IMG/VR virus record: IMGVR_UViG_3300042402_003405
Location: 1 to 39,947 of that record
Source of the DNA: a virus
Length of the DNA: 39,947 nt
Direction: 5' to 3' (one strand)
The translations under genes and the position numbers were made by a program. Below the pieces are notes generated by a model that did not search any database, was not told the DNA's origin, and saw only the letters and a list, made by a program, of their open reading frames with translations. Shown here one piece after another: positions 3,601 to 32,701 of the stretch (the first letter of the stretch is position 1; each line of letters begins with the position of its first letter).

Positions 3601-6600
3601 GAACAGCCTGTTGGCGCTCTCGCCGATCTGGATGACCGTGCCCAACTTGAGCCCCAGACCCCGCAGCTTGGTGCGCAGCGTGCGCGGCGCCTCACGCGTG
3701 AAGTCGACGACCTCCGCCTTCATGCGGTCGGTGCGCTCGGAGTACGCGAGCATCCCGTCGGCGTCGCGGCCCTTCGCTGCCTTGGGCTCGTAGGCAAACA
3801 TGTCGTCGCTCTTGCGCAGGATGGCGTCGAGCATCGTCATCGACTGCGCCTTCGGGAAGGGCAGCTTCAGGAAGTCGACGACCTTTTCTACCAGCGCCTT
3901 CCAGACCGACGTGGCCTTCGGCTCGATGCCCCATGCACGTGCGACCGAGGCCGGCACCTCGATCTCCGAGAGCAGCTTCTGGAAGCTAGGGTTGGCCATT
4001 GCTTCGGCGACGAACTCGAGCGGGTCCATGTCCCGCATACCGTATTCACTGCCGACGCGCTCAGACAGGTTGGTATTGCGGGTCTTAAGTTTGACCCACG
4101 CCATCATGAGATTTACTTGGTTGAACAGCTTTGGGTCGTTGCGCAGAGCATGAGCTGTCGCCGCGTGCACAGCCTCATGCAGCGTTACCCGCAGGGGTCC
4201 GCCGGCGACGGTGTCGTACATCTCAGGGAACAGGCGGATCGTGCCGCGCGTGCCGTTCGCCTGCAGGCCCCCGTAGTTGTAGCCGAAGATCCCCTCGACG
4301 TCCTTGTTGAGCACATCGAGCCCAGCCGCGACACGCATGGTGTTGTACTCGTCGAGGCTCATGACCTCGATGGGCGTGTCTCCGACGCGGTCGATGACCT
4401 TGCGGATGATGGCCACGGCCAGCCGGGGCAGCGGCTTGTCGCTGTTCTCGTACCTCTGCAGGTACGGCTCGAGCTCGTCGCGGACAGTCGTCTTCCGGCG
4501 TTGGGTCGGCGCCCGCTTCGAGCCAACCATGCGCTGGGAGTAGCTCTCGTCGCGCTGGTCAGCAAGATCGACGTCAGCGTCGTCGCGCGCAGCGACGTCA
4601 TCGAGCGCGTCGGTCTTGGTGTCGTCGGCTTCGTCAGCGCTTTTCTTTTTAGCCGTTGCCTTCTCACGAGCAGCGTCGTCACTCTGCTCTTTAATGAGCG
4701 CGTCCAGCTCCTCGGCTTCCGTCAGCTTACGTGCCGGCGCGACATCCGAGAGAGGCGTGCTGTCAGCATCGGTGTCTGTGTCGTCGGGGTCTTTCTCGTC
4801 GCCGAGTTTCTTTCTAGCTGTCTCAGCGTCGGCCTGCTCTCCCTCAGCTCGGGTCGCGTTCTCGTTTTTTGCGCGTGTGCTACCCGCGTTCGCGGCTTCG
4901 TTCGCAGCAATGCGCCGTGCAGCAGCAGCCTGCAAATCACCTGAACGGAGGGCGCGCTCGGCAGTGATGTAGTTCGTGAAAGCGTCAGCGATAGCAGCCT
5001 TCCGCTTGCTCTCAGTCTTTAGGTTTGCTGCGTCCTTGACAGCCTTCAGAAAGCGGACCGTCTCGATCAGGTGCGATGTGTAGGGCGTCGGATTGGTGTT
5101 AGCGCCGCGCGTCGTCCGCTGCGGGATCTCAACGCCTGCTTCTTTAGCGTCGGCCACAAGCTTCACCGCCGACTGCACCACCTCACGTTGGGCAGCTTCG
5201 TCGCCCTTGAGCGCGTTGCTCTCGACCGTACCCACACGGGTAATGTCCTCGACCGACTTCGGGTGCCGGCCGGTGATGTACTCTCGGGCCTTATTCTCGT
5301 TGGGGGTAGTCTTGTTCTCCTTGCGGGCGACGACCTTCCTCTTCGCCTCAGCTGCATTTTTGCGCTCGGTCGCGAGTTCTTCCTGTCGTGCTTTGCGCTC
5401 CTGTTCCTGCTGCTTCGCCCAAGTGTTCTCAACACGGAACACACGGGGCTTACCCGCTTCCGCAGAGACAAGTTTAGCAGGAGCAGCTTTATCGGCCACG
5501 AGCCTGTCTTGCGCGACGGGCGCGTCAGGCTCTTCAGCTTTACCCGTAGGGGCAAGCGGCTCGGGGTAAGTGAGTTCGGCCTTCTTCTCGCCGACGACTT
5601 CGAACCGCGGGGGTATTACCTCGTCCCCTACAGCCATAACCCGCAGGACTTTGTCCGCGCCACGAGAGGCACGGGGACCACCCTCTGGGTACTGCCATAC
5701 AGCTTCGCCGTTGGCGTTGTCCCCAAGGTAAGTCGAGCCCTTGGGCATCCCTCTCGGGACTTCGGGGGCCTCCTTCGGTGCCGGCTTTTCGGGAGCTGGC
5801 GCCGGCGCTTCTGTGGGGCGCGGCGACGGGGGCGGCTCAGCGGCCTTCTGCGGCATCTCCCTGACAGCGGCCTGCACCTCTGCAGCGCGCAGCGGAGCGC
5901 CTTCGGCCGGGGGGAGGGGGATCTCCGGCTCGGCGGTCACGCGGGGCGGCGCAACCACTTCCTCCTCGAGCGGCACAGCGGTGCGCTCAGCCGGTGCCTT
6001 GCGACGGCCGGGGGCAAGCATCGTGTCCGTCGGGGGCGGCGGCACGAGCTGCTCGGTGCGCGGGTTGGGCACCCTTGGGCCAGCTGCAGGGGGAGGCGGC
6101 ACGACACCGCGCGGCATCGGGGGGATGCCCGGCTCGGAGCCCGGCGGCTTGGTGATGTCGGTTGGGGGCACGACAGGCGGCGCGCCCGCTGCTGGCGGAG
6201 TAGCTTCGGCAGCCTGTCGTGCACGCTCAGCCTCGATCTGCTGGGCCAACGTGCCCGTCGCGGCGCCGGCGGCCGGCGGCGTTACCTCGGGAGGTGACGG
6301 CGTGCGTGTGCTGTCTGGCTCGTTGTCGGTGACGAGGGCAGCGGTCTGCGCCGGGTCCGGTGCGCCCGGCGGGACTTCGGTGCCGTTGGCGCGGTCGCGG
6401 ATACGATCGCGGCGCGAGCCCACTGAGCCGACTGCGCCGAATGCACCGCCAAGGAAGCCGCCCTCAACGCTGGAGTTGAGGATCGCGAGCGCCATCCTAT
6501 CCGGGTCGTACTCGGGTTTAAAGCCACCCCTGATGTCGGCCCGCTGACTGGCACCCTCTTGTCCAGCGCCACCCGCCGCACCACCCACCAGTCCGTCCGC

Positions 6601-7281
6601 GACGCCAACGCCAATACCTCCGAGAAGGCTCCTGCCAGCCGTGCCTCTCAGGGCATGAGCCATCGTGCCGCCACCGATCGCGTTGCCAGCGCCTGTCATA
6701 GCCAGCGACGTGGGGTCGTCCATACCCTTGATCAGCTTCTCGCGCGCTTCAGCCTCGCCCATCTCGGTGCGGAGGTTCTTGTAGATGAACGACTGCTTCT
6801 GCAGGACATCGTCCGGCAGGCTGTCGATCTTCTTGCGAGAGCGGTCGAGCTGTTCGGCGACACCAAGCGTTCCATAAAACGCGCTGCCGGCGGCCACGCC
6901 AGCCCAGCCCGGCGGCAGTAGAAACGCTCCCAGAATGTCAGGTCCCATAGACGCCAGCTTCATCACAGCCGCTTTGCCCGGTGAGGCAAACATCGACTTC
7001 TGGCCTTCCTCAGGGAACGCCGCGCTGTCACGCCAGCTCCGGTTGGCCGGCGAGATGGTGTCTTCGACAGCGTCCGAGGCCGCATGGAACAGCTTCTGGA
7101 CTTCTCGAGTGGGCTCGCCCGGCTGGCTGCCAATTACGTCGGCGATGCCGCCGGTGACCGCTCCCTGCACGTCCAGCGCCCGCTTGCCAAAAGTCTTGGC
7201 CGCGTCGAGCAGCAGCGACCCGCTCTCTTCGGTGGGCGGCGCGGGCGGGGTGTTTCCGAGATAGTCCGGCTCGACAGCCAT
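640..7281 (-). CDS. Giant polyvalent internal virion protein (2213 aa) with zincin-like motif
   Basis: By size, position and composition this is a large polyvalent or ejection protein of the kind carried inside podovirus heads and released into the cell with the DNA. The N-terminus has several Gly/Ala-rich hydrophobic stretches (roughly residues 105-145, 200-245 and 270-290) that could enter a membrane. A long Pro/Glu/Ala-rich linker follows (about 295-530), then a charged region. Residues 1033-1040 read TLHEAVHA, an HExxH zinc-metallopeptidase signature with H1035, E1036 and H1039. Downstream LEFVAEA supplies a possible third ligand Glu. The C-terminal part (about 1690-2110) is Trp- and Leu-rich and resembles the LPD38-type C-termini of such proteins (LGVDLSGRFGLES). 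No lytic transglycosylase motif was seen. The ATG at 7281 has an AGGTAA Shine-Dalgarno in a dyad element. Peptidase activity is inferred from the motif only. Confidence 0.8.
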   Translation of the reverse strand: MAVEPDYLGNTPPAPPTEESGSLLLDAAKTFGKRALDVQGAVTGGIADVIGSQPGEPTREVQKLFHAASDAVEDTISPANRSWRDSAAFPEEGQKSMFASPGKAAVMKLASMGPDILGAFLLPPGWAGVAAGSAFYGTLGVAEQLDRSRKKIDSLPDDVLQKQSFIYKNLRTEMGEAEAREKLIKGMDDPTSLAMTGAGNAIGGGTMAHALRGTAGRSLLGGIGVGVADGLVGGAAGGAGQEGASQRADIRGGFKPEYDPDRMALAILNSSVEGGFLGGAFGAVGSVGSRRDRIRDRANGTEVPPGAPDPAQTAALVTDNEPDSTRTPSPPEVTPPAAGAATGTLAQQIEAERARQAAEATPPAAGAPPVVPPTDITKPPGSEPGIPPMPRGVVPPPPAAGPRVPNPRTEQLVPPPPTDTMLAPGRRKAPAERTAVPLEEEVVAPPRVTAEPEIPLPPAEGAPLRAAEVQAAVREMPQKAAEPPPSPRPTEAPAPAPEKPAPKEAPEVPRGMPKGSTYLGDNANGEAVWQYPEGGPRASRGADKVLRVMAVGDEVIPPRFEVVGEKKAELTYPEPLAPTGKAEEPDAPVAQDRLVADKAAPAKLVSAEAGKPRVFRVENTWAKQQEQERKARQEELATERKNAAEAKRKVVARKENKTTPNENKAREYITGRHPKSVEDITRVGTVESNALKGDEAAQREVVQSAVKLVADAKEAGVEIPQRTTRGANTNPTPYTSHLIETVRFLKAVKDAANLKTESKRKAAIADAFTNYITAERALRSGDLQAAAARRIAANEAANAGSTRAKNENATRAEGEQADAETARKKLGDEKDPDDTDTDADSTPLSDVAPARKLTEAEELDALIKEQSDDAAREKATAKKKSADEADDTKTDALDDVAARDDADVDLADQRDESYSQRMVGSKRAPTQRRKTTVRDELEPYLQRYENSDKPLPRLAVAIIRKVIDRVGDTPIEVMSLDEYNTMRVAAGLDVLNKDVEGIFGYNYGGLQANGTRGTIRLFPEMYDTVAGGPLRVTLHEAVHAATAHALRNDPKLFNQVNLMMAWVKLKTRNTNLSERVGSEYGMRDMDPLEFVAEAMANPSFQKLLSEIEVPASVARAWGIEPKATSVWKALVEKVVDFLKLPFPKAQSMTMLDAILRKSDDMFAYEPKAAKGRDADGMLAYSERTDRMKAEVVDFTREAPRTLRTKLRGLGLKLGTVIQIGESANRLFGPDNLGTRLSNLLGKAATEKERILNSGDRQLVGDMAALQRKTSPEAWNDFSRFLLDETMAGVFADAPVPKGESVALWQGRAQHADLQRRLNELPPDLRAMRKRMHDYFRERQNDISKDLIKNIVRVINDGVPDDALAMKIFENKLDPAEKAILEKDAVFKAIRDARAMSKIKGPYVPLMREGDHVVSGRFTITSPGNATRVDAAGKPDDNSNIFEFKTKAEAKSFAENQTLKVLKTQRVFTDPATGERFVEITTADGTEKYKLTASDAAWGVADEKFRVTVQDKYLAFFEREVHARQHHAEMSARNDVVMDGVAPRRWEPHGANSSFMSEAFNQALNSLQQRKGFQELDAGAKRQLVDHLRNASLAAMGSTRAQSRRLPRTFVAGASTDITSTTGKYASSSAGYLSRARFQPQIDATLKAMTDYNNDYGYEATERTYPRGQILKELKERVYRQGDPEPTGMWHQASSRLLQLSFLDKLASPAFHMINAAEPWTISMPLLAGRFKVGRTMAALNQAYRDIGAMSAAGAGLSDTVKAFKTDQGLTNYLTRFQDRLRKLPDGKHIADMLEHLYDVGLLSRDAGMELGRMSTPNSPLVGRALDRADLMARQVGTAIESINRTVTAVAAYRLEYAKTKDHARAKAYAQEITHDAMGDYSSWNAAPIFNHGLGRLALQFKKYAQKTYFLLGKTAAAALRGDKEAMKAFAGIMATHATLAGTLGLPIEAIKVGFITANLLGMTNSGYDDFERWTRELAASSLGVAGGQIVTRGLPRYLGVDLSGRFGLESMIFPMGEPKSRKPEDLLAYAAKAFAGAPISMLTEYPAGVKALWEGDVALAMEKLVPLKVWADSMQAYQKYEKGKQTPSGRETLSPYSPGEAALKVLGFTPGREAETGEMRGSLMKQQQQEREERTKLITKWVQATPAEKSAMWVKIREWNAGQPKGARLEMKELTDNQQRRIRETKDSNNEFGFRTSTRDAHIREGVQYYNVR

Positions 7282-7284
7282 GTG

Positions 7285-7300
7285 TTACCTACGCAGGTTA
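7285..7300. repeat. Dyad element TTACC-N6-GGTTA
   Basis: Junction copy between the stop of the 1064-aa gene (TAG at 7304-7302) and the ATG at 7281. On the minus strand the right arm AGGTAA is the ribosome-binding site of the giant protein. Confidence 0.7.
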
Positions 7301-7301
7301 T

Positions 7302-10300
7302 CTAGCGGCTGAAAGGCGACTTGTTGGTGCCGTCGCTGGGTGGCGGCTTGTCTTTGCTGCGGTTGAAAAAACTACGCATGTCGGGGGGTGCCGTGGGTAT
7401 AGCTTGCCCACGGTTGAAAGGCGACGGGTTGGTGACCGGCGGCGGGTTGTCCTTGTTGCGCTCTTGGATCTGCTTCTTCTGCCGGTCCGCCTCTTCGCCC
7501 AGCTTGACCGTGGCGTCGTAGTCCTTGTCGCCGGGCAGCGTCTGGCCGAACACTGAGCGCTGCACTGCGTTCACCGTAGCCTTGCGCTGCTTCTGCAGGG
7601 CGCTAGGCTCGCCCGGCTTCAGGGCCTTCTCGCGCTTGGCCACAGCCGTGGCGATGCGTTCGCGGGCGATCTCGGTGAGGTCCTTGTACGCCTCCGGGCG
7701 CAGGTGGACGTAGCCGATGCCGTCTACGCTAACGACGACGTTGCCGAGGATGTCGCGACCCTGCGGTTTGTAGAAGCGCTGCGACGGGTTCTCATCGTCC
7801 CAGCGGGTCATCTTCGAAATGATCGTCACCGCGCGGTTGGCGTCCGGCAGGGGGTTGCTGGTCATGACCTCGAGAGCGAGGTTCTTGAGCCGGCCGTCGT
7901 CGACCGTGCTGAAGATCGTGTCCTCGAGCTTTACGCGCCGGTCGGCAGGCGTCTCAGGAGGCGGGTTCTTGATCTTCTCGATCGCCCCCTGCACAGCCTT
8001 GTCGATGTTTTCGACCAGCGCGGCGCGCTCCGGCGGCCGGGGCTTGTAGTCGTACTCCTCCTTCGCGCGAGCCTTCAGCTCGGCCATCGACTTCGTCTGC
8101 TCGCCCTTCACTCGATCTTTCTCAGCGCGAGCATGCGCCCGGCTGTCGGCCTGCCACTGCTTGAGCTCGGCATTGTAAGCGGCCGTCGCCGACCGTAGGG
8201 CGGTCTGTACCGCGGCGCGGTCGCGGGCTGGCAGCTTGGCGGCGGCAGTTTCGTACTGCGCGTACGGGTTCGGCCCCGGATGCGGACGGTCGAACGGGCG
8301 TTCGGCTCCCTGAGGAGCAGCCACCTCTTTGCCCCGACGAAGTATGCGGTACTGCGCGCCGTCTCGGGCGACCTCGATGTCGGGGATCTCGTCGGGGTCG
8401 ACTTGCTGGCCCGGTGGAGCAGGAGCCGGTGCGGGTGCGGGTGCGAGTGCGGGTGCGAGTGCGGGTGCGGGTGCGGGTGCGGGTGCGGGTGCGGGTGCGG
8501 GTGCGGGTGCGGGTGCGGGTGCGGGTGCGACTTGGTTCGGGCGCTGCGGCGTAACACGAAGGCTGGGTTTGGGCTGAGTTTGCTCAAGGACACGAGCGCG
8601 GTTCTGCATATACCGCTCTTCGTCTGCAGCAAGGCCGCCGCTCTCGCCGCCACCCTGACCGTCGGCGTTCGCCGGACGAGCGCCGCCCAGAGGCATGGAG
8701 GGGCTGTCGCCGGCGCCTTGGCTGGCTGCAGGAGCACCGTCGGTTTCGTCGTCGCTGTAGCCATCGCCAGCGCCGTCGCCCGTACCATCGTTGGGGGCAG
8801 AGGGAGCGGCCGGCGTGCGCGGCGTAGCTTGGCCTCGGTCGGCGGCGGACTTGCCGATGGCGTCGATGAGCTGCTGCGCGGCAGGTGAAGGGCCGCCACC
8901 GCCACCGCCCCGGCCGGCGCCGACATTGGCCGTGCGCTTCTTGGTCAGCTCGATCTGGGCGCGGGTCAGTTCTTCTTGCGCCTCGGTGCGCGTCGAGCGG
9001 CCCTTCATGGTGGCCGACGCGCGGCTCATGAGCTGGTCCCAGTACAGGCTGCGGTCTGACAGGCCGAGGGCGACGTTGAAGATCGTCTGCGGCGTGATGG
9101 GGATACGCTGCACGACTTGGCCGGTGCGCGCGTCCGTGATGTCTACTTCCTTGCCGTTGACAGAAGCGCGCTGGCCATTGGGGATCTGGTTGAAGCCGTT
9201 CACGGAGGTCTGCACCGCGCCGCGCTGGTCGTTGGCCTTGAGCTGGTTGAGCGCCGCGTCGCCGTACTTCGCGGCCATGCCGGCGCTGTACTGCATGAGC
9301 TCGAACACCGCCTTGTTGGCCTTGTCCGTCTCACCCCGGCGCGAGTAGAAGCGATACACGGCCTCGAGCCGACGGATGCCCCAGATGGCTTCGTCGTTGG
9401 GCACGCCGGGGATCATGTTGACGCGCTGGTCGATCGCTCGAACCATGTCGGGGGTCGCCGCGCCGACGCCCTTCCTGAGAAACGCTTCGCGGCCAGCCGC
9501 GGTAGCGCGGTCGGTGCCGGGGAGCGCTGCACCCGAGTTGTCCAAGTTGAAGATCTTCGTGGCGAACTTGATACCGCCGTCGAGCGCCGTCGTGTAGTCC
9601 GCGTTGGCGTTGGGGCTGGTGCCCTCACCGGCGGCACCCGTCATCTGATAATCGACCGGGCCAGCCGCGCCGGCCTTCGGGGCGTCACCTTCGGGGGTAA
9701 CAGCGGCGGGAGCGGCCGGCAGCGCCTCCGTCGGACCATCAAGCTCCGGGTCGTAGGCCTCGACGCGGGTCTGGTCGTTGAGTGCCTTGCGCTTGGCCGG
9801 CGGGGCAGCAGCGCGGCCTCCCGTGCCGGTTCCTGTGCCGGTCCCGCCGCCCGCGCTGGCCGCAGCGGGGCGCGTCGGGATGGCCTGTGACTTGCCCGGG
9901 GGGATGGCGTCCTTGCGCGGCGCCTGCCGGTTCGGCATGACGTCGTTGGACGCGCCGACCCGCGCGTACGGGGCGCTGAACACAGGATCGCCGCGCCCGG
10001 TGGCGCCGCCCGGAGCGTCTTCGCCGGCGTTCATCGGCGGCTGCGGCACCGGCGGCTCGTTCCAGCTCTCGTCGCTGCGCGGCCCCAGCGGGGTCTGGCC
10101 CTCGACCACCTGCTGGCCGTCTTCGTTGAATTCACGGTACGGAAGGTCGGGGACGTCGACATAGTCGGGGGCCGGCTCGGCATAGTTGATGGCCGTCTGG
10201 CGCGCGCGGATGTAGCCCGGCGTGTCCATCACGAGGCCGCCCTTACGATAGCGCTCTGTGGGCTGGTCTTCGTAGTCTGCTGGGTACGACGTCGCCGGAA

Positions 10301-10496
10301 CCGCGGGCGGCTTCGTGCCGTAGTCCTTGTAGTATTGGTCCGCAGCGGCCTGCACCTCGGGCGACTTATTCGGGTCACGCGCTTCGCGCTCTTTGCGACG
10401 GTCGCGACGGTCAGCCATCGCGGCAAACGAGCCCATCGTGTTGATGGTCGAGCCGAAAGCACTCGAGAATTCTTTGAGTTCGCGGCCGAGGGACAT
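7302..10496 (-). CDS. Large internal or structural virion protein (1064 aa), Ala-Pro repeat
   Basis: I do not recognise a catalytic domain. The N-terminus (MSLGRELKEFSSAFGSTINT) is followed by a Pro-rich, low-complexity region. A more ordered middle part (about residues 300-510) has helical features, and there are Gly-rich tracts. Near residues 655-690 lies an Ala-Pro repeat encoded by 17 hexanucleotide units. The C-terminal quarter is basic and coiled-coil-like and ends with repeats of a PSPFNRG / KSPFSR motif. The gene sits between the S74-like protein and the 2213-aa polyvalent protein. That position usually belongs to internal core or ejection proteins in podoviruses, which is the basis for the call. 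The start ATG at 10496 has a GAGGT Shine-Dalgarno. Confidence 0.7.
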   Translation of the reverse strand: MSLGRELKEFSSAFGSTINTMGSFAAMADRRDRRKEREARDPNKSPEVQAAADQYYKDYGTKPPAVPATSYPADYEDQPTERYRKGGLVMDTPGYIRARQTAINYAEPAPDYVDVPDLPYREFNEDGQQVVEGQTPLGPRSDESWNEPPVPQPPMNAGEDAPGGATGRGDPVFSAPYARVGASNDVMPNRQAPRKDAIPPGKSQAIPTRPAAASAGGGTGTGTGTGGRAAAPPAKRKALNDQTRVEAYDPELDGPTEALPAAPAAVTPEGDAPKAGAAGPVDYQMTGAAGEGTSPNANADYTTALDGGIKFATKIFNLDNSGAALPGTDRATAAGREAFLRKGVGAATPDMVRAIDQRVNMIPGVPNDEAIWGIRRLEAVYRFYSRRGETDKANKAVFELMQYSAGMAAKYGDAALNQLKANDQRGAVQTSVNGFNQIPNGQRASVNGKEVDITDARTGQVVQRIPITPQTIFNVALGLSDRSLYWDQLMSRASATMKGRSTRTEAQEELTRAQIELTKKRTANVGAGRGGGGGGPSPAAQQLIDAIGKSAADRGQATPRTPAAPSAPNDGTGDGAGDGYSDDETDGAPAASQGAGDSPSMPLGGARPANADGQGGGESGGLAADEERYMQNRARVLEQTQPKPSLRVTPQRPNQVAPAPAPAPAPAPAPAPAPAPAPALAPALAPAPAPAPAPPGQQVDPDEIPDIEVARDGAQYRILRRGKEVAAPQGAERPFDRPHPGPNPYAQYETAAAKLPARDRAAVQTALRSATAAYNAELKQWQADSRAHARAEKDRVKGEQTKSMAELKARAKEEYDYKPRPPERAALVENIDKAVQGAIEKIKNPPPETPADRRVKLEDTIFSTVDDGRLKNLALEVMTSNPLPDANRAVTIISKMTRWDDENPSQRFYKPQGRDILGNVVVSVDGIGYVHLRPEAYKDLTEIARERIATAVAKREKALKPGEPSALQKQRKATVNAVQRSVFGQTLPGDKDYDATVKLGEEADRQKKQIQERNKDNPPPVTNPSPFNRGQAIPTAPPDMRSFFNRSKDKPPPSDGTNKSPFSR
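8428..8529 (-). repeat. In-frame hexanucleotide microsatellite, 17 units of GGTGCG
   Basis: Seventeen consecutive 6-bp units on the plus strand; two units are AGTGCG instead of GGTGCG. On the coding strand each unit gives Ala-Pro (or Ala-Leu for the two variants), forming a stiff linker in the 1064-aa protein. The near-perfect identity suggests recent slippage expansion. Unit gain or loss keeps the frame. Confidence 0.95.
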
Positions 10497-10504
10497 GGTG
10501 ACCT

Positions 10505-11881
10505 CTATACGGGTAGGGCGGCGCGCATCTCGGGCTTGGCAGGGGCTCCCTGCTTCGCCTGACGGGCCTTCTCGATCAGCTTCTGGAGTTTCTCTTCGCC
10601 GTACCAGCGCGTCACGTCTTCGGGGAAAATGAACTCCCCGACGTCGATGGCAGCCTTCGGGCCAGCCTGCCCGTTCTGGCTGAACGTCTGGGCCGGCACG
10701 TCGTCGATGGCGCGGCCGCGCGAGGGGGACATCTCCTGCGGGACGACGCCGCCGTCCATGTTCTGGTACTCACCCGCCTCGTCGCTCGGGTCTTCCGGAT
10801 ACTCGTCGAGGTAGTTGGAGACGGCACCACCCTCAGCGTAGCGGTTACCCCTGCGGGTATCATCGGTCGGCAGGGCGCGGTCGTAGTTCACCCGCAGTAG
10901 GCCGTCACGCCCGCGGGCCACCGCCTCAGGCCGGCGCTTGGCCGTCTCCTGCGCCGACAGGCCGATCTGGGTCTTGGGGTCGCCTTTGAGGTTGTACTTG
11001 ATGATCTCCTGACCATCATACGTCTCACCGATCGGCTTGATGTTGTCCTTCGCACGCTCGTCGGACATCATCATCATGCCGCCGGCGATGCCTGCGAGCG
11101 AGCCCAGCGTCGAGCCGATGCCCGACGACTGGCTGTTGTTGGCGTTGTACTGCGCCATCTGGCTCTGGTACTGGTTGCTGAGCGTGTTGCCCCACTGCCC
11201 GATCGCTTGGTTTTGGAGGCCGCCGAAGGCCGCCGGGTTGCCGAGAGCCGGCGCCGACGCTGAGTAAGTGCTGTTCTGGGCACCCACGCCCGCCGAGCCG
11301 CCTGCAGTGGAGGATCCGAACTGGCCGGCGATCTGGCCGGGGTAGCCCTTGCCGACGTTGATCGCCTCCGAACGCAGGGCACGGCCGCGGTCTTCGACCA
11401 TCACGTCGCTCTGGTTGGCCGCCGCAGCCATGGCCGCCGCCTTCTGGGTCTTCACGCCAAGGTCGAGCGCCGCGTAGCGCGTAGCGGACGGGTCGATGCC
11501 GAAGCTTTCGAGCTGGCGCTTGGCCGCCTCGCCGGCAGTGTCGAACTGCTGGGAGACAGTGCCCATGCTGCGGCCGCGCTCGAGCTCCTTGCGCTCGTCC
11601 GTCGCGTACGACTTGGCATCATCGACGAGGTCGTTTTCCAGCGGCTGGTAATACTGCTCGTAGCGGGCGCGATCCTTGCGCGCCGTCTCCGAGTTAAACT
11701 GCATGTCGGATGCAAAGACATCCTTGACTTGGTCGGCAAACGCCTTGTTGTCGGCGTACTGCTCTTTCGCCCACGCCAGCTGCTCGCGCATGATCGCAGC
11801 GTATTCTTTCGCGCTTTCACGGGAGGCATTGGCGACGCCGCTATAGTCGGGCGGGGCAGGAGCCGAGGAACCACCACTCAT
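10505..11881 (-). CDS. Virion protein with S74-type intramolecular chaperone-like segment
   Basis: The 458-aa protein opens with an Ala/Gln-rich helical half (MSGGSSAPAPPDYSG, many A/Q/Y). From residue 273 it carries MSDERAKDNIKPIGE, then IGLSAQETAKRRPEAV and LRVNYDRAL. This is the layout of peptidase S74 / endosialidase-chaperone domains, in which the Ser and the Lys five residues later (S273 and K278 here) are the self-cleavage pair. Unlike the classical tail-spike case, about 120 residues follow the domain. They end in a segment (DVGEFIFPEDVTRWYGEEKL) that I associate with podovirus structural proteins. Self-cleavage is not proven. The start ATG has an AAGGTG Shine-Dalgarno. Confidence 0.75.
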   Translation of the reverse strand: MSGGSSAPAPPDYSGVANASRESAKEYAAIMREQLAWAKEQYADNKAFADQVKDVFASDMQFNSETARKDRARYEQYYQPLENDLVDDAKSYATDERKELERGRSMGTVSQQFDTAGEAAKRQLESFGIDPSATRYAALDLGVKTQKAAAMAAAANQSDVMVEDRGRALRSEAINVGKGYPGQIAGQFGSSTAGGSAGVGAQNSTYSASAPALGNPAAFGGLQNQAIGQWGNTLSNQYQSQMAQYNANNSQSSGIGSTLGSLAGIAGGMMMMSDERAKDNIKPIGETYDGQEIIKYNLKGDPKTQIGLSAQETAKRRPEAVARGRDGLLRVNYDRALPTDDTRRGNRYAEGGAVSNYLDEYPEDPSDEAGEYQNMDGGVVPQEMSPSRGRAIDDVPAQTFSQNGQAGPKAAIDVGEFIFPEDVTRWYGEEKLQKLIEKARQAKQGAPAKPEMRAALPV

Positions 11882-11897
11882 ATTGCACCTTTCGGCC

Positions 11898-12338
11898 TTA
11901 ACCCAGCGGCGGCGTTCCGCGGGGCAGTTTAAGCCAACGACATTGGGGCCTCGTCATAGATACTACTACGAGGCCACCTCCTTCGACAACGTCTGTTATC
12001 GCCGTCTCTACGACGAAGCCGATTTTGAGGTCAAACGCGAGCACTTCGGGTCGGGTCGACGGCACGAAGCCGATGATCTTCTCAACGCCGAGCTGATTGA
12101 ACGGATAGTCGAACGCCATCCAGAGAAGCCACTTGCTGCGCCAGCCGGGCTCGAAGCCCTGCACGTGCATCTCAATAGATCGCTTGCGGTAGTTCTGGAA
12201 CAGCACGCCCCCCAGTAGGCGCCCGTCGTTACCTGAGCGGGTAATGCAGTGGTCGTGTCCGGGGATGAAAGGGTGACCCAGATGCTCCAGTGCACAGCCG
12301 TGCTCCAAATTGTCGATGTGGATCAAAACTTGTTCCAC
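11898..12338 (-). CDS. GNAT-like acetyltransferase
   Basis: The 146-aa protein resembles the small GNAT-type acetyltransferases found among tail genes of many phages. It has a strand GVLFQNY, a segment SIEMHVQGFEPGW, helix WMAFDYPFNQLG, then VEKIIGFVPSTRPEVLAFDLKIGF, which corresponds to the acetyl-CoA-fold end where a neighbour residue and a conserved GF occur. A typical R/Q-x-x-G-x-G loop is not obvious. Its target is unknown; modification of host or virion protein is possible. The gene overlaps the upstream 90-aa gene by 16 bases. The start is GTG at 12338 or a TTG four codons later; the AAGGTGA Shine-Dalgarno suits either imperfectly. It contains an intragenic dyad element at 12229-12244. 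Confidence 0.7.
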   Translation of the reverse strand: MEQVLIHIDNLEHGCALEHLGHPFIPGHDHCITRSGNDGRLLGGVLFQNYRKRSIEMHVQGFEPGWRSKWLLWMAFDYPFNQLGVEKIIGFVPSTRPEVLAFDLKIGFVVETAITDVVEGGGLVVVSMTRPQCRWLKLPRGTPPLG

Positions 12339-12595
12339 TCACCTTTGTGCCAGACTGAGATCTTCCAAGCGTCCGTCGGCTTGATGGGGTACTGCACCCA
12401 GAGATCGCCGACGTTGGTGCCCACCGGAATGGGATCGCCGGCGTCGGGGTTGAGCACGAACACCGTCGCTGCGCCGCCACCCACCGGGCCGCGCGAGCCC
12501 ATCAGGACTTCGAGGTTCTGCTTCATGGCAGACACAACGGCCTGCAGGTTCTCACCTGACTGGTACAGCTCGGGGATGGCCGTGAAGTTAGACAC
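12323..12595 (-). CDS. Small tail-associated protein (90 aa)
   Basis: Not assigned to a family. The first 35 residues (NFTAIPELYQSGENLQAVVSA) look like an amphipathic helix. The rest (AATVFVLNPDAGDPIPVGTNVGDLWVQY, ending WHKGEWNKF) is a beta-rich, Trp-containing fold resembling small fibre or neck proteins. The GTG start at 12595 has AAGGA eight bases upstream, overlaps the end of the 575-aa gene by 8 bases and is followed by the overlapping acetyltransferase, so the three are probably translationally coupled. Confidence 0.7.
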   Translation of the reverse strand: MSNFTAIPELYQSGENLQAVVSAMKQNLEVLMGSRGPVGGGAATVFVLNPDAGDPIPVGTNVGDLWVQYPIKPTDAWKISVWHKGEWNKF

Positions 12596-14315
12596 TCTGC
12601 AGGTCCTTCACCGTGGAGCCGATCTCGATCGACTTGATGTCGAAGTTGCCTTCGAACACGAATTGGTAGGTTGTCGCCTTAAACCCTGAAGGCAGCCGGA
12701 ACACCTCCTTGTCGGGCGGTGTGCTCTTGGTCTGGACCAGCACGCCGTCGGCGTAAGTCTTCATCGTACCTGTCGGGGTCGCGCCTCCGAGCGGCGCCTC
12801 CCAGATGAACTTGACGGCGCTGAGGTTCTGGGGCTTCGGCATCGTGAAGATCTTGGACGTCCAACGATAGTCGCCCATGACGTCGTACGTGACGTCGAGG
12901 AGCTTCACTTTCCCCTCGCGGATGAGAAGCACCTCGCCGGTCCATGTATCCTGCAGGACGTTGTATGTAGGCTCCGGGTACTCGAGCTTGCTCAGCGCAA
13001 CTCGCTCATCCTGCGTGTCGAGGAATATACCGTCGCGCGTGCCTGTGTAGTCTTCCTGCTGGAAGGCGTCGGTCTGGAAAGCATCGACTTGGAACACGCC
13101 CTCGATAATCCCTGAGAAGGCATAGTACGCTTCGTCGATCAACGCCGCGCGCAGCTGCGTCAGGTTGGTCAGCTCGGCCCAATGATCCTTGGGGATCATA
13201 GCGAGCGTGACGTTCCGGGCGGCGCCGGGTACTGCGAAGATCAACCCGTTCGGCGAAGCGTAGTACACGCCCCTCGGGGTGGCCACGATCGACCCGCGGG
13301 ACACACACGGCTCGGCGGCGGCGATACGCCGGAGAGACACCGTGGTGGGGCTCGAGCCCGTTGCGAAGAACGGGTATGCCTCGGTCCCCACAACGATGGA
13401 CTGATCGAACGCGCCGGCGCCAACGACGTTGTAGTCGACGAGCTGCACGTACTCGACAGGCCAAGCATGCGGCCGGTACGGCTCACTGAACCACACTTCG
13501 TTCAGCCGCCAGCCGACGAGCATGCCGTTGGCCATCGCGACCATACCCTCCAAATCGCTGGGGGGCGCTGTCCACGACGTGCTTTGCAGCGCGCCTTGGC
13601 CGATGATGGTGTCGTCCGACAGAGTGTCGCTGTACGTCGTGTTGGCGATAACTTGGTCAGTGACCAAGTAGTACACCGCGACGCCCTGCGCTGACGTGAT
13701 CGTCCGGTAGATGCGGACGTCTTCCAACACACGACCAGTCGTGTTGCCGCCAGAGGGTGCAGTCAAGGTGACTGCCCACGTGTCGTCGACCTTACCTGTG
13801 ACGACGAGCGGCGGGCTCGGCGGCCCCTCTTCGCCGTAGGCGCTCACCCACGTGTAGACATAGGAGCGGGTCACAGTCGTGGTCGACACGCCGCCGGCCG
13901 GCGCCACAGCGGGCGCTACCGTGGGCGCCGGGATACCCAGAACGAGATTGGGGTCCCCCGCTTCGATACGCTCGAACGTCGTGTAGCCGGGGGGCTCGCT
14001 CATATTCGCCCAATAATACGCCGGCTCCTCGCTGCCGCGCACAGGCGACTTCACGACAGTCGTCGTGATGTCTTCGAACTCGAGCCAGTAGCTGTCTTCG
14101 ATATGCAGAACGTCCGGCGCACCCTTGGGGACGCGGAACACATAGCGCGCCGCAGGGTTCACCAGTGTGTGTATGTCCCGCGGCACACGTATGCCTTCGA
14201 GAGCCCCGGACCGGGTCCAGACGTTAGCGGCATCAGACGCGTTGCTGTCCGGCAAGAGACGATCGTCTCGCGCCGGGATCATGCCGCCAAACGCTTGGAT
14301 TTTGATCCGGGGCAT
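12588..14315 (-). CDS. Tail hub / stabilisation-type structural protein (575 aa)
   Basis: The protein begins FGGMIPARDDRLLPDSNASDA followed by NVWTRSGALEGIR. I know this opening from large podovirus tail or head-completion proteins that bind the tail tube or close the head. A fibronectin-like strand region follows (YVYTWVSAYGEEGPPSPP, about residues 175-195), then a beta-propeller-like remainder with recurring W/Y and GG turns. No enzyme motif is seen. The start ATG at 14315 has a clean GAGGTAA Shine-Dalgarno. The gene lies three bases after the preceding stop, in the operon between the proline-rich 239-aa protein and the small tail proteins. The role is inferred from similarity of the opening and from context. 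Confidence 0.7.
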   Translation of the reverse strand: MPRIKIQAFGGMIPARDDRLLPDSNASDAANVWTRSGALEGIRVPRDIHTLVNPAARYVFRVPKGAPDVLHIEDSYWLEFEDITTTVVKSPVRGSEEPAYYWANMSEPPGYTTFERIEAGDPNLVLGIPAPTVAPAVAPAGGVSTTTVTRSYVYTWVSAYGEEGPPSPPLVVTGKVDDTWAVTLTAPSGGNTTGRVLEDVRIYRTITSAQGVAVYYLVTDQVIANTTYSDTLSDDTIIGQGALQSTSWTAPPSDLEGMVAMANGMLVGWRLNEVWFSEPYRPHAWPVEYVQLVDYNVVGAGAFDQSIVVGTEAYPFFATGSSPTTVSLRRIAAAEPCVSRGSIVATPRGVYYASPNGLIFAVPGAARNVTLAMIPKDHWAELTNLTQLRAALIDEAYYAFSGIIEGVFQVDAFQTDAFQQEDYTGTRDGIFLDTQDERVALSKLEYPEPTYNVLQDTWTGEVLLIREGKVKLLDVTYDVMGDYRWTSKIFTMPKPQNLSAVKFIWEAPLGGATPTGTMKTYADGVLVQTKSTPPDKEVFRLPSGFKATTYQFVFEGNFDIKSIEIGSTVKDLQSV

Positions 14316-25414: not shown

Positions 25415-26515
25415 TTAGCCCGCCGTGACGATCGCCTGCGCCAGCGCCTGACCGTCGAGCACCTTGTAGCCGTAGACCTGCAGGCCACGGAGCAGGGTGC
25501 CGAAGGTGCGCTCGGAGCGGAGCGTCTCGACCTTGGTCATCTGCGACGCGAAGGTGAGCGCGTGCGGATGGCCGGCGTAGACGGCGAACTCGCCGGCAGC
25601 CAGACCGCCAGCCACGCCGTTCGGCAGGAGGTTGGACACATAGACCGTGAACCGGTCGATCATGCCCAGTCGGCCGTTGCGCAGCATGGTGACGCTGTCG
25701 CCCGACATGAACACCTGACGGAGCTCGGAGCGCTTGATCAGCGTGCCGACCCACGTCGGGATCAGGATCCAGCGGCCCATCTCCGGGATGTTCTGCTCGT
25801 CGAGCACCTGCCCGAGGCGGGTGATCACTTCGACGACGTCGACTTTGCCCGCCGGCGCGCTGTTGGCGACGACGGAGAGCGGCGAAGTCGTGACGCCGAG
25901 GTTGATGTTGCCCGAGATCTTGCCCGCGGTGGCGCCGCGGTTGTAGGTCGCGGTGGCCTGTCCGAGGATGCCGGCGAGCACGTCGGTGTCGACGGTGATC
26001 TTCATCTGCTGCGACGCGTCATCCGACCAGAGGGCCATCTGGTTGATGTCCGACTGGACCTTCATCACGTCGTCGAGGATCGTGTTGAAGTATTTGCCCT
26101 TGTCGATCAGCAGGGTGACGATCGCCGAACCCGGGCGCTGCACCGCCAGATCGCCACCGGCGAGGTAGTCGCTGATGGTGATGGTCGGGATGGTGCGGAT
26201 GTTGACGGTGTCGCCGAAGTTCTTGATCTCGCCTTCATAATCCGTGTTCGAGATCGCAGCCAGCACGGTGGCGGCGTAGAACTTCTCGATCAGCTTGCCC
26301 GACCAGATCTCCGGGATGAACGTACCCGAATAGGCCGGCGACGGCTGAGACGACCCCGAGGGGTAAATCGCCGGCGTGGTCATGGCGCCGGCAAGGCCGA
26401 ACGCGAAGGCGATGTTGGGATTGGACGCGCCGAGGTCGTGCCCGAGCGGGAAGTCGATACCGGCAGTCAGGACGCCAGCGGTTCCGGCGGCGCCAATGAG
26501 GTTCTTGATGTCCAC
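25415..26515 (-). CDS. Major capsid protein (HK97-like fold)
   Basis: Main head protein. A GTG start at 26515 has GGAG six bases before it; a second GTG at 26527 is possible but without a good site. About 366 aa. Typical capsid features: flexible N-arm followed by YSGTFIPEIWSGKLIEKFYA; KNFGDTVNIRTIPTITI (E-loop region); VQRPGSAIVTLLIDKGKYFN; a spine-helix-like segment with DDVMKVQSDINQMAL; WILIPTWVGTLIKRSELRQV and LNDEQNIPEMGR-type P-domain patterns; C-terminal LRSERTFGTLLRGLQVYGYKV. These patterns are seen in HK97-fold podovirus capsids near a scaffold and portal, as here. The scaffold gene ends 28 bases upstream. Confidence 0.85.
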   Translation of the reverse strand: MDIKNLIGAAGTAGVLTAGIDFPLGHDLGASNPNIAFAFGLAGAMTTPAIYPSGSSQPSPAYSGTFIPEIWSGKLIEKFYAATVLAAISNTDYEGEIKNFGDTVNIRTIPTITISDYLAGGDLAVQRPGSAIVTLLIDKGKYFNTILDDVMKVQSDINQMALWSDDASQQMKITVDTDVLAGILGQATATYNRGATAGKISGNINLGVTTSPLSVVANSAPAGKVDVVEVITRLGQVLDEQNIPEMGRWILIPTWVGTLIKRSELRQVFMSGDSVTMLRNGRLGMIDRFTVYVSNLLPNGVAGGLAAGEFAVYAGHPHALTFASQMTKVETLRSERTFGTLLRGLQVYGYKVLDGQALAQAIVTAG

Positions 26516-26543
26516 GATGATCTCCACGAGAAACAGGGTTCAG

Positions 26544-28186: not shown

Positions 28187-28477
28187 CTACATCCCGCCGG
28201 TCGAACCGGGCGAGCGGGTCTGGCTGCCCTTGCGAGGCGCCATCTTGCCCGAGCCACCGGCGGCGAACTTGGACCCGACACCCGAGCCTTCCTTAGACGT
28301 GGTGCCAGCCTTGGCCGGCGTGGCGCCGGTGCGGCCGAACATCTTGCCCGAGCCACCGGCGGCGAACTTGCCGCCCTGCCCGGAGCCTTCCTTGGACGTG
28401 GTACCCGGCTTCTGGGGGGTAGCGCCGGTGCGGCCGAACATCTTGCCCGAGCCACCCTTGGGGAACGAAAAGCTCAT
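28187..28477 (-). CDS. Small repeat protein (96 aa), Gly/Ser/Lys-rich
   Basis: Three tandem units with a period of 99 bp (33 residues) built on GGSGKMFGRTGATPxKxGTTSK and EGSGxGxKFAAGG. The bases around CATCTTGCCC begin at 28241, 28340 and 28439 on the plus strand. The composition is flexible and basic. No family recognised. The ATG at 28477 has AGGAG six bases upstream; a GTG three bases earlier is less well placed. Between it and the portal stop lies the parS box. Confidence 0.65.
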   Translation of the reverse strand: MSFSFPKGGSGKMFGRTGATPQKPGTTSKEGSGQGGKFAAGGSGKMFGRTGATPAKAGTTSKEGSGVGSKFAAGGSGKMAPRKGSQTRSPGSTGGM

Positions 28478-28489
28478 CACAGTCTCCTA

Positions 28490-28505
28490 TGTTTCACGTG
28501 AAACA
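28490..28505. other. Perfect parS box (ParB-binding palindrome)
   Basis: TGTTTCACGTGAAACA, a perfect 16-bp palindrome, is the consensus of chromosomal parS sites bound by ParB in many bacteria. It is in the 43-base gap between the portal stop (28521) and the small repeat gene. I see no second copy and no ParB/ParA gene in this window. By random expectation a perfect 16-mer in 40 kb is very unlikely. What binds it (host ParB or a phage ParB elsewhere) is unknown. Confidence 0.85.
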
Positions 28506-28520
28506 ACAACTTACGCCGTC

Positions 28521-30632
28521 TTACCCAACTCCACCAGACACCCGCGTGGGCGTCAAGCTCGTGCGTGGCCCCATGTCCTTGTTCGGGGGGCCAGCCTGCG
28601 CTCCTTGGGCGGCAGCAGCGTTCTCGCCGACACCGCCATGCCCGGGAACACCCGTGGCCGCGGCGACTTCCTGTGCCATACGCTCTTGGCGGGTCAGATC
28701 CTCGGCGCTGGGGACGATCTGCTCGCCCGGCAGGCCCATCGTGTTGGCCACGGCGCGAAGCACTTCGGCGCGCCCTTTCGGTCCGACGATCTGCATGTCG
28801 ATCGGATTGGCCGTCGCCGCGAGGAATTCGAGCTGGCGAGCGCGGAGCGTCTCGCGCTGGAGCGCCACCGACACGCCCTTGACGACGACTTTCTCGGTGC
28901 CGTCGAGCACGTCGGTCGTGTCCGTCAGCAGGATCATATCCAGCAGGGCTTCAAGCGCCGGCGCGATCTGGTCCCGGTCGATGTTGGCACACACCGTCTG
29001 GAGCACCTTGGACGCATTACCCATGAGCATGGCAAGGCCCGACGCCGTGCGCCCGGCGCCGCCGGATGCCCCACCCTGAAGATACCTTGGAATGGCCGAG
29101 ACGTCGTCCGCCATGGCGAAGAACATCTGGAACGTCGCCATCAGCTCTTGGATGTTGCTGGCCGGCTGGAAGAACTCGATCGGCTTGTTGGCCGAAGACC
29201 CGGCACCCATCGGGTCGCTGGTCACGTGCCAGCGCTTCCACGGATAGATCTCCTCGCCGTTCTCCATGCCCGACAGGCGATCGTCGTTGACGACGACTTG
29301 GGGGCCGGACGACATCGCCATGTTGTTGTTGATGGCCCGAAGCGCCGCGTTGGCGGCCTCCTGCAGGTCTTCGAGCATATCCGGCAGGGCGTTACCTACA
29401 AGGGTACCGGGGACCTTCTCGAACGACGTGATGTAGTACGGCGCGCGCTTCTTGGGGCTGGGCGCCAGCTGCAGCTTGATGATGTAGGAGCCGATCAGCC
29501 ACGCCTCGACCGCATAGTCGCGCATGGGGTCCGGGATCAGGCGCTTGGGCATCCCGGCGTCGAGGAGCATCTGCCCCTGCACGCAGCCATGGAACTCGAG
29601 GCAGTCGATCAGCCCGGTCATGTTCCAGAACGGGTTTTCGCGGCTCTCCAGCACGGCGCGGGAACTGTCGGTACTGTCGGGCTGGTCGCTCAGCCCGTTG
29701 GGGTACTCGGTGAGCACCGCGCGCACAGCCTTGTGGTCATAGCCCGGCAGGTCGAGCGCGTCGTTCAGGTCGGCCCGGGTGAACCGGATGCGCTCGATCA
29801 CGTTTGCGTCACCGATAGTGGACGCCCCCGGCGACCACCAGATGTCGAACGGCGACACGCGGAGCCAGCAAAGCTTAGGCACCATGTCCGTGTAGGGCAC
29901 GCCGTTGCGCCACTCCACAATGTTCTGCATCTTCACTACCGGTCCCTTGAGGCAGGAAAATGGGAATATCGGTAGGTCGACGATGCACTCGGCCAGCGCG
30001 CCGTAGAAATTGCCCTCCTGCAGGAGGGTTTCGATCTTGTCTTCGGCTACTTTCACTTGGACTGTAGCCTTTTTCTTGGCTGCCTGACGAGCAGCTTCGA
30101 GCAGGCTGAGGGTGCGGTCGCGAACGTCGTCCACGCTGGGCTGCGCCCCCTCGGTCACCATCCCCATGACCTCGGACTGGACCTTCTGGATGATCGCCTG
30201 AATGACCCGCTCAGGGATCTCGGCGTCGGCCGGCGCCTCGAGCCCCCAAGGGCGATCGACCGACAGGTAGACATCCCGCAGGAGCGAGCTCGCGCCGCGG
30301 CACTTGACGGCGGTCAGGCGGGCATAGATCTGCGAGCCGCCGAACCGCTGGATCTCGCTGAGTTTCGCCGGGTCGTACTGCCCGTTGAACTGGCGCATCG
30401 CCGACAGCAGCCGCTCGGACCAACCCGAAGCGCCGTTGCGGTGCGTCGTCATGATCTCCCACTGGCGCCGGATCATCGCGGCGAGGCCCACGGCCTGCGT
30501 CGGGGTAACAGTCTGGCTCTGGGCCAGCTGCTCGCGCTGGCGCGTCTCGGCTACCTGCATCTGCGCAGGACCCATCACCTGCAAAGCACCGGCGCCGCCG
30601 GCGTTCTGAGGTGGGACGGGGATGGCCGCCAT
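28521..30632 (-). CDS. Portal protein (703 aa)
   Basis: Forms the DNA-translocating dodecameric vertex. Evidence is size and place (adjacent to terminase, upstream of the capsid and scaffold), plus portal-like features: LAAMIRRQWEIMTTHRNGAS and YARLTAVKCRGASSLLRDVY near the N-terminus, WLRVSPFDIWWSPGA, IRFTRADLNDALDLPGYDHK, ECIVDLPIFPFSCLKGP and the clip/stem LEFHGCVQGQMLLDAGM, and a C-terminal GGASGGAGRTASGLAMLMGN plus helical barrel. The start ATG at 30632 was chosen over TTG at 30635; the ribosome-binding site is weak (GAAG). It contains a dyad element at 29392-29407 inside the coding sequence. Confidence 0.85.
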   Translation of the reverse strand: MAAIPVPPQNAGGAGALQVMGPAQMQVAETRQREQLAQSQTVTPTQAVGLAAMIRRQWEIMTTHRNGASGWSERLLSAMRQFNGQYDPAKLSEIQRFGGSQIYARLTAVKCRGASSLLRDVYLSVDRPWGLEAPADAEIPERVIQAIIQKVQSEVMGMVTEGAQPSVDDVRDRTLSLLEAARQAAKKKATVQVKVAEDKIETLLQEGNFYGALAECIVDLPIFPFSCLKGPVVKMQNIVEWRNGVPYTDMVPKLCWLRVSPFDIWWSPGASTIGDANVIERIRFTRADLNDALDLPGYDHKAVRAVLTEYPNGLSDQPDSTDSSRAVLESRENPFWNMTGLIDCLEFHGCVQGQMLLDAGMPKRLIPDPMRDYAVEAWLIGSYIIKLQLAPSPKKRAPYYITSFEKVPGTLVGNALPDMLEDLQEAANAALRAINNNMAMSSGPQVVVNDDRLSGMENGEEIYPWKRWHVTSDPMGAGSSANKPIEFFQPASNIQELMATFQMFFAMADDVSAIPRYLQGGASGGAGRTASGLAMLMGNASKVLQTVCANIDRDQIAPALEALLDMILLTDTTDVLDGTEKVVVKGVSVALQRETLRARQLEFLAATANPIDMQIVGPKGRAEVLRAVANTMGLPGEQIVPSAEDLTRQERMAQEVAAATGVPGHGGVGENAAAAQGAQAGPPNKDMGPRTSLTPTRVSGGVG

Positions 30633-30722
30633 CAATTTTTCTTCGACATTGGGTGGGCCTCGACCATGAGAGGCGAAGTAGTGTACCCTCTAGTAATAGC
30701 GCTTTTTTGCAAGGTGAGCAAC
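30633..30722. promoter_or_regulatory. Divergent intergenic region between portal and terminase
   Basis: Ninety bases from which portal reads left and terminase reads right. On the minus strand TTGCTC at 30722-30717, a 17-base spacer and TATTAC at 30699-30694 form a weak sigma-70-like promoter that could drive the late leftward block. I find no convincing plus-strand promoter; terminase has an AAGGTGA Shine-Dalgarno. Confidence 0.4.
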
Positions 30723-31220
30723 ATGGGCAGTGCCCCTCCCATCCCGCTACCGATCGACGAGACGATGTTGTCGCGACTGGCGCACGAGTGCGCACGGGAC
30801 ATGTATCCCCTCGAAACGATCCTTCAGACGTTCCGCCTCGACCAAGTTTACTTCCAGACCCACATCGTGAACAACCCCCGGTTCATGCTGTTTTACGCCG
30901 AAGCGCACGCGCTTTGGAACTCCTCCCTCAATGCGAAAGAACGCTCAGCGCTGAAGGCCGCGGTCGTCTTCGAAGAGTGGATTGGGCAGGCCAACACCCT
31001 GCTGCATAAGAGCGATGAGCCCCTGATGGGCAAGGTCAAGCTGGCCGAATTCCTCGCCCGGGTGGCCGGCATCGACAAGGACAAGAGCGCCTCGACGGCG
31101 CCCGGCGATCGCGTTGTCGTGAACATCAACCTCAGCGCGGCCGGCGGGGGCATGACGACCATCGACAAACCCGCCCCGGTTACCCTTGAAGGTACGGCCT
31201 CTCTGGTCCCTGCCCAATGA
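30723..31220 (+). CDS. Terminase small subunit (165 aa)
   Basis: Probable DNA-recognition subunit of the packaging motor. The 165-aa protein opens MGSAPPIPLPIDETMLSRLA. A helical middle (ARDMYPLETILQTFRLDQVYF; ALWNSSLNAKERSALKAAVV; EEWIGQANTLLHKSDEPLMG) could hold the DNA-binding and oligomerisation helices. The call rests on size and on the ATGA overlap with the terminase large subunit. The ATG at 30723 has AAGGTGA seven bases upstream; the frame is open further upstream but no site supports it. It contains a dyad element near its 3' end (31180-31195). Confidence 0.75.
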   Translation: MGSAPPIPLPIDETMLSRLAHECARDMYPLETILQTFRLDQVYFQTHIVNNPRFMLFYAEAHALWNSSLNAKERSALKAAVVFEEWIGQANTLLHKSDEPLMGKVKLAEFLARVAGIDKDKSASTAPGDRVVVNINLSAAGGGMTTIDKPAPVTLEGTASLVPAQ

Positions 31221-32701
31221 GCGTGATCAATTTCACTGCGCCCAAGACCTGTGCGCAGTTCATGCTCTCGGAGCAGTTCATCCGCCTGATCGCCGGGCCT
31301 GTGGGATCCGGCAAGACCACCGCCTGCGTGATCGAGTTGTTCCGGCGCGCCGCGGCGCAGGACCCGGCACCCGACGGCTACCGGTACACCCGCTTTGCCA
31401 TCCTCCGGCAGACGCTGGCGCAGCTGAAGCTGACGATTTTGAAAGACATCATGCAGTGGCTGCACGGGTTTGCCACGTGGCGAGTGTCGGAGAACACGAT
31501 CTACATCGAGGTCGGCGACATCAAGTCCGAGTTCATCCTTGTCCCACTCGAGGATCCAGAAGATCAACGCCGCCTGCTGTCGTCGCAGCTCACCGGCGCG
31601 TGGGTGTCGGAGTGCATCGAGATCGACGCCAACCTGATTTCGGCGATCGCCGGCCGCTGCGGCCGCTACCCGGGCGCCAATATGGGCGGCGCGACACATG
31701 CGTTCATCATCATGGACACCAACATGCCTGAGGAGGGCTCGGCGTGGCACGAGCTCATGGAGAGCCCGCCGCCGGACTGGCAGGTGTTCAAGCAGCCGGG
31801 CGGCCTCACGGCTGAGGCAGAGAACCTCCCATACCTGCTGCAGACAAAAGAGACGCTGGCGCTGCCCGAGAGCCATCCAGACCGCATCGCGCAGGGCCGG
31901 CGGTACTACGAGCGCCTCTCCCGCGGTAACTCCGAGGCGTGGGTCCAGCGCTACGTGCACGCGCAATACGGCATCGACCCGAGCGGCCGCGCTGTCTTCG
32001 GCGCCTCGTTCAAATCGAGCGCCAGCACGGGCGAATTCACCTACCCATGGCACGTCGCCCCGTCGCTGGAGCCGGTCAGCGGCCTGACGCTGATCATCGG
32101 GCAGGACTTCGGCCGCGACCCGTGCGCCGTGATCACGCAGGTCGACCACAATGGTCGGTTCCTGATCCTCGAAGAGATCATCTCCCGGCACCAAGGGCTC
32201 GAGTTGCACGTCAACAACAAGCTGCGCCCGACGCTGCGCCAGCCGCGGTACATCAACCACCCGCTGGCGATCGTCGGCGACCCCGCCGGCGTGTCGAAAG
32301 ACACGCTGTTCGAAATCACCTCGTTCGACTTCCTGAAAACGGCTGGGTTCCACGCCTTCCCGGCGTCGACCAACGACATCGACCCGCGGCTGCGCGCTGT
32401 CGAGAGCTGGCTGCTGGGCGCCCGGGGCACTGGGCCGGCAATCGTGTTCGACGAGAGCCGCTGCCCGACGCTGATCCGAGCCATGAAGATGGGCTACCGG
32501 TACGAAAACGTGCGTTCCAGCGCCGCCAAGGGCGAAACGAAGCCGAAGCCCCTCAAGAACGAGTACAGCCATATTGCCGACGCACTGCAATATGCAGCTC
32601 TGGCAGCGATCGGGGGCGCGCTGGGGTACATCAACCGCCAAGTAACGCGCCCCCGTAGCAATAACTACGGCCGCAAGGTGTCTGCGGCCGGCTGGACCTA
32701 G
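31217..32701 (+). CDS. Terminase large subunit (494 aa)
   Basis: ATPase-nuclease that pumps DNA into the head and cuts it. Residues 27-34 GPVGSGKT form the Walker A motif. LTGAWVSECIEID (about residues 126-137) fits a Walker B with catalytic E132, and HAFIIMDTNMPEEG (161-174) fits the C-motif and following linker. The nuclease domain starts around 290, with IIGQDFGRDPCAVI (D297 likely metal-binding), GDPAGVSKDTLFEI as a second acidic site, and a C-terminal SHIADALQYAA with the last aspartate. Complete length. The start overlaps the small subunit (ATGA), and its stop overlaps the stop of the opposite gene in a shared CTAG. Confidence 0.92.
   Translation: MSVINFTAPKTCAQFMLSEQFIRLIAGPVGSGKTTACVIELFRRAAAQDPAPDGYRYTRFAILRQTLAQLKLTILKDIMQWLHGFATWRVSENTIYIEVGDIKSEFILVPLEDPEDQRRLLSSQLTGAWVSECIEIDANLISAIAGRCGRYPGANMGGATHAFIIMDTNMPEEGSAWHELMESPPPDWQVFKQPGGLTAEAENLPYLLQTKETLALPESHPDRIAQGRRYYERLSRGNSEAWVQRYVHAQYGIDPSGRAVFGASFKSSASTGEFTYPWHVAPSLEPVSGLTLIIGQDFGRDPCAVITQVDHNGRFLILEEIISRHQGLELHVNNKLRPTLRQPRYINHPLAIVGDPAGVSKDTLFEITSFDFLKTAGFHAFPASTNDIDPRLRAVESWLLGARGTGPAIVFDESRCPTLIRAMKMGYRYENVRSSAAKGETKPKPLKNEYSHIADALQYAALAAIGGALGYINRQVTRPRSNNYGRKVSAAGWT

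Follow-up and report, generated by a model that had tools for sequence, protein, structure and literature searches.

The window analysed here (39,947 bases) is a whole IMG/VR record that probably covers only part of the genome of a tailed phage, with about a third missing, and it carries one exact copy of the chromosomal-type parS site of bacteria, TGTTTCACGTGAAACA, at 28490-28505. We think it rather probable that this is a genuine loading site for the ParB protein of the host, possibly evolved from a pre-existing hairpin. Exact parS is strongly over-represented in many viruses that lack ParB, which suggests that phages may borrow this segregation protein from the bacteria they infect.

All 16 positions of the site agree with the 16-bp consensus tGTTNCACGTGAAACa that defines chromosomal-type parS (PMC7022226), and no second site in the window matches when up to three mismatches are allowed, a looseness at which shuffled sequences average 0.06 sites. 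The initial annotation had recognised a parS here and placed it in the small gap that separates the portal from a repeat gene, and we agree on both points: the site lies in a gap of 40 nt (28481-28520), with the portal gene on one side and a small G/S/K-rich repeat gene, starting with ATG at 28477, on the other, and it takes up much of the stretch from the portal stop codon to the Shine-Dalgarno sequence (SD) of the repeat gene (Table 1). The same annotation had called a single perfect 16-bp palindrome unlikely to arise by chance. That is right for the exact parS word, for which the chance expectation in 40 kb is about 1e-5, but not for palindromy as such, since a further perfect 16-bp palindrome, CCCTCCTGCAGGAGGG, is found inside the portal gene (30013-30028). 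CACGTG is not in general excess in the window, with 9 copies observed vs 12.5 expected. Inside the small repeat gene, tandem repeats of about 99 bp, 86% identical, occupy 28241-28456 and encode GGSGKMFGRTGATP.

Table 1. Features of the window around the parS site and the head genes.
Feature	Position	Strand	Remarks
parS palindrome TGTTTCACGTGAAACA	28490-28505		As RNA, 6 bp could pair around an ACGU loop
Shine-Dalgarno sequence of the small repeat gene, AGGAG	28484-28488	-	One base past the palindrome
Small repeat gene of 96 aa with recurring motif KGGSGKMFGRTGATP	28187-28477	-	Homologous to the post-portal gene in L005-L007
Small inverted repeat TTACCTGATCGGGTAA	28169-28184	-	Next gene junction, also just ahead of an SD
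Portal / head-tail connector gene	28521-30635	-	phrog_332, SU10_portal; stop codon 28521-28523
Major capsid protein gene	25415-26527	-	72% to Rhizobium phage RHph_TM27A
Terminase large subunit gene	31217-32701	+	Divergent from portal, as in RHph_TM27A

The head and tail genes lie on the minus strand and the gene for the large terminase subunit on the opposite one. The closest relatives among isolates are the Rhizobium phages RHph_TM27A/B, TM29 and TM3_14A (portal 54%, capsid 72%), and the next-closest are Roseobacter, Pelagibacter and HMO-2011 podoviruses, so the host is likely to be an alphaproteobacterium. Genome contigs searched with the portal gave relatives at 33-37% only, 3/4 of them in MAG-like or unclassified assemblies. 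Contamination with host DNA was ruled out by the terminase, portal, capsid and lysis genes that are spread across the window, and complete isolate phages also carry parS. The identical word serves as chromosomal parS in Alphaproteobacteria such as Hyphomonas neptunium and Caulobacter (PMC6650430; PMC7022226), and H. neptunium ParB in purified form binds to exactly this 16-mer (PMC6650430). The window copy differs in location: it is carried by a phage, with neither parAB nor a bacterial origin nearby. The region was also searched for a sigma-70 promoter and for an intrinsic terminator, i.e. a G+C-rich stem followed by a run of T, and neither gave a match.

Exact parS is present in at least 120 IMG/VR contigs, against 11 and 12 for two control palindromes with a base composition matched to that of parS, while its one-step symmetric variants T3C and C6G were found in 40 contigs and 1 contig, respectively. 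The 18-mer with C before and G after the site alone occurs in 69 IMG/VR contigs, where about 0.7 would be expected. These C/G flanks are found on 3 of 120 parS contigs among the matches listed, which gives an estimated total of about 2,800 contigs (about 900-13,000) and an enrichment of exact parS in viruses that is over hundred-fold by estimate, figures that have a wide interval and are based on the three counts. In round figures, some 1,000-10,000 contigs would carry the exact site, and very roughly one viral contig per thousand. In GenBank phages, a 30-mer probe around parS matched 357 records vs 1 for a control probe. The loci pooled from two scans, 186 among the matches listed, form 123 blastn clusters. 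Half of the parS sites are intergenic among the matches listed (120 loci), in DNA of which about 89% is open reading frame, and 26% of the viral sites are followed within 60 nt by an SD and start codon, vs 17% of random positions. One control palindrome, TTTGTCACGTGACAAA, is located between genes in 10 of its 11 viral contigs (L203-L213) and may therefore have some regulatory function of its own. Literature searches, with the exact 16-mer included, turned up no publication about phages with host-type parS.

Most of the carriers have no ParB. The ParB_N domain (PF02195) was found above the cut-off in one of 50 parS contigs and as a weak match in one more, whereas the remaining 48 had none at all, and 12 of the 14 parS phages that were checked over their whole records are without any match to it. 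Phages with parS and without ParB_N include phi29 (4 sites), Listeria phage P100 and two Ruegeria phages, as well as a filamentous inovirus (L308, PQ006135.1, 5,910 bp) that has six exact sites, three of which begin at most 2 bases after a stop codon. Phages with a single site exist as well, e.g. P100 and the Arthrobacter phage Greenhouse. Since exact parS is enriched over the controls and most of its carriers are without ParB, host-type parS in phages that lack ParB is a real phenomenon, and the same two observations make it plausible that host ParB loads at the window site. The initial annotation had also left room for a ParB that the phage itself encodes outside the window. In such a case a ParABS system would lie in the off-record part of the genome, with the window parS as its centromere. 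The probably fragmentary state of the record, 39.9 kb vs about 61 kb in the Rhizobium phage relatives, would allow for this, but ParB_N is absent from the window and, above the cut-off, from 41 relatives, including records of 53-67 kb and RHph_TM27A. Centromeres that belong to phages usually differ from chromosomal parS, which also speaks against such a system, and we regard it as very improbable.

To our knowledge, phi29 is the one phage that exploits ParB clamps and SMC loading, and its parS sites are reportedly bound by Spo0J of its Bacillus host. The likeness to the window phage is that the sites are of the host type, that ParB_N is lacking in phi29 and in the window record, and that one of the four phi29 sites falls in gene 10, which is the portal gene. 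The differences are that phi29 carries its parS four times (TGTTCCACGTGAAACA on one strand), where the window has one exact and intergenic copy, that this copy is not conserved in related phages, and that one would not expect spore trapping in a phage whose kin infect Rhizobium.

Conservation in related phages was proposed by the initial annotation as a check on the site, and the outcome is divided: the exact word is lost, and a palindrome is retained in the nearest relatives. Contigs L002-L004 are essentially the same phage, with two mismatches in 9.8 kb, and carry no information on divergence. Exact parS was found only in such near-identical contigs, and none of the relatives whose portal is at most 63% identical has it; the whole records of the relatives hold just three parS sites at two mismatches, elsewhere than in the portal gap. 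In L005 and L006 (63%) the homologous repeat gene is preceded by GCTTCACGTGAAGC, a palindrome that is not parS. A small zinc-ribbon gene, possibly HNH-like, separates the portal from the repeat gene there (L005 12148-12453, also in L006), and its stop codon falls within the palindrome. H. neptunium ParB no longer binds parS when one arm carries two T-to-C changes (PMC6650430), and the L005 palindrome has one such change in each arm. The core TTCACGTGAA is common to the window palindrome and to L005/L006. This common core, as well as the position immediately upstream of an SD, is what one would see if the palindrome were an operator for another dimeric regulator, of phage or host origin, acting on the small gene or the head operon. 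We find this quite improbable, given that the region has no promoter-like match, that the window holds one copy only and that the parS consensus is matched at all 16 positions.

The homologous gap of the relatives often contains perfect stems of 6-7 bp with loops of 3-4 nt, usually just ahead of the SD, and 9 of 21 non-redundant gaps, the window's included, beat shuffled sequences at p<=0.05 (binomial 3e-7). The window palindrome shares gap, size and position with these stem-loops of HMO-2011/TM27-like phages, but their sequences are unrelated to it and to each other (TTCCTTTTAAAAGGAA, TTCCTCGTACGAGGAA, TTCCCCAGTGGGGAA, TTACCCACAGGGTAA, TCACTAACGTTAGTGA, TCAACTATCGATAGTTGA), several have odd loops, which are incompatible with dimeric DNA sites, and none of them is parS. 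The gap palindromes TCACTA..TAGTGA of L036, L037, L038, L040, L047 and L066 recall half of a T7-like promoter core as an inverted repeat. The palindrome of the window could alternatively be a stem-loop in the mRNA, between the portal stop codon and the next SD, that governs how stable the head-operon transcript is or how well it is translated, and the match to parS would be coincidental. Besides the enrichment of stems in the homologous gaps, this explanation draws on the inverted repeat TTACCTGATCGGGTAA at the next gene junction of the window and on the palindrome that L005 and L006 retain, as a sequence other than parS, upstream of the homologous gene. However, the stem in the window is weak (-3.9 kcal/mol) and absent from the MFE fold of the region, and the loops in several relatives are self-complementary, which an RNA hairpin does not need. 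In addition, a random 8-bp arm would give parS only about once in 65,000, yet exact parS in viruses is estimated to be enriched to the extent described above. We therefore hold a coincidental stem-loop to be unlikely, even if it is the strongest of the alternatives.

If the slot after the portal were filled by a random palindrome, the coincidence of about 1/65,000 can be compared with the approximately 1/1,000 of viral contigs that have parS, about 1/4 of these near an SD and start codon, and the rough odds for a selected parS over coincidence become about 10 to 1 or better. We have lowered our confidence from this to the level of rather probable because the site is not conserved, is present in a single copy and has an uncertain base rate. 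Against the host-parS reading stand the one copy, its loss at 63% portal identity or less, and the unrelated repeats in the gap elsewhere. A stem-loop one symmetric step away from parS could have been converted into it, and both readings can then hold together; since the same short gap often holds inverted repeats in the relatives, the window parS may derive from one of these.

A more distant branch of the same portal superfamily has its parS in another place. Portal relatives at about 33% identity carry the exact site inside the coding sequence directly upstream of their portal, and in L259, L261, L265, L290, L306 and others it encodes TVSRET. A protein search for this upstream gene found 11 loci, and the exact site is present in 7 of 7 non-redundant ones, one of them at 79% identity. 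The six parS codons never vary, while 44% of the codons for other invariant amino acids in the gene do, and we take this as modest evidence (about 0.03) that selection may act on the DNA itself.

The most reasonable scenario for a host-ParB loading site is that the phage borrows the chromosomal ParB of its host and does not encode its own. Host ParB would, with CTP, clamp at parS and slide from it into the genes for the portal and head, and by way of host ParA and/or SMC the phage DNA could be positioned, tethered or co-segregated in a slow infection, a role like the one proposed for the phi29 sites with Spo0J. The possible benefits to the phage are positioning, co-segregation in slow infection, loading of SMC, or titration of ParB. 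Binding, spreading and benefit at the window site are what we infer.

The window parS is ordinary in kind, and the interest lies in its breadth across viruses. It is an evenly balanced question, in our opinion, whether the borrowing of host ParB through one or a few exact parS sites is widespread, repeatedly evolved and independent of sporulation, in virulent tailed phages, microviruses and inoviruses alike, with the window phage as one case. Isolates that are suited to testing such hitch-hiking are Listeria phage P100 and the Arthrobacter, Gordonia and Ruegeria phages. Much of the biology of bacterial chromosomes centres on ParB clamps and on the loading of SMC, and if hitch-hiking on parS is common it would give a simple and testable explanation for the way in which phage DNA may be positioned, segregated or marked inside host cells.
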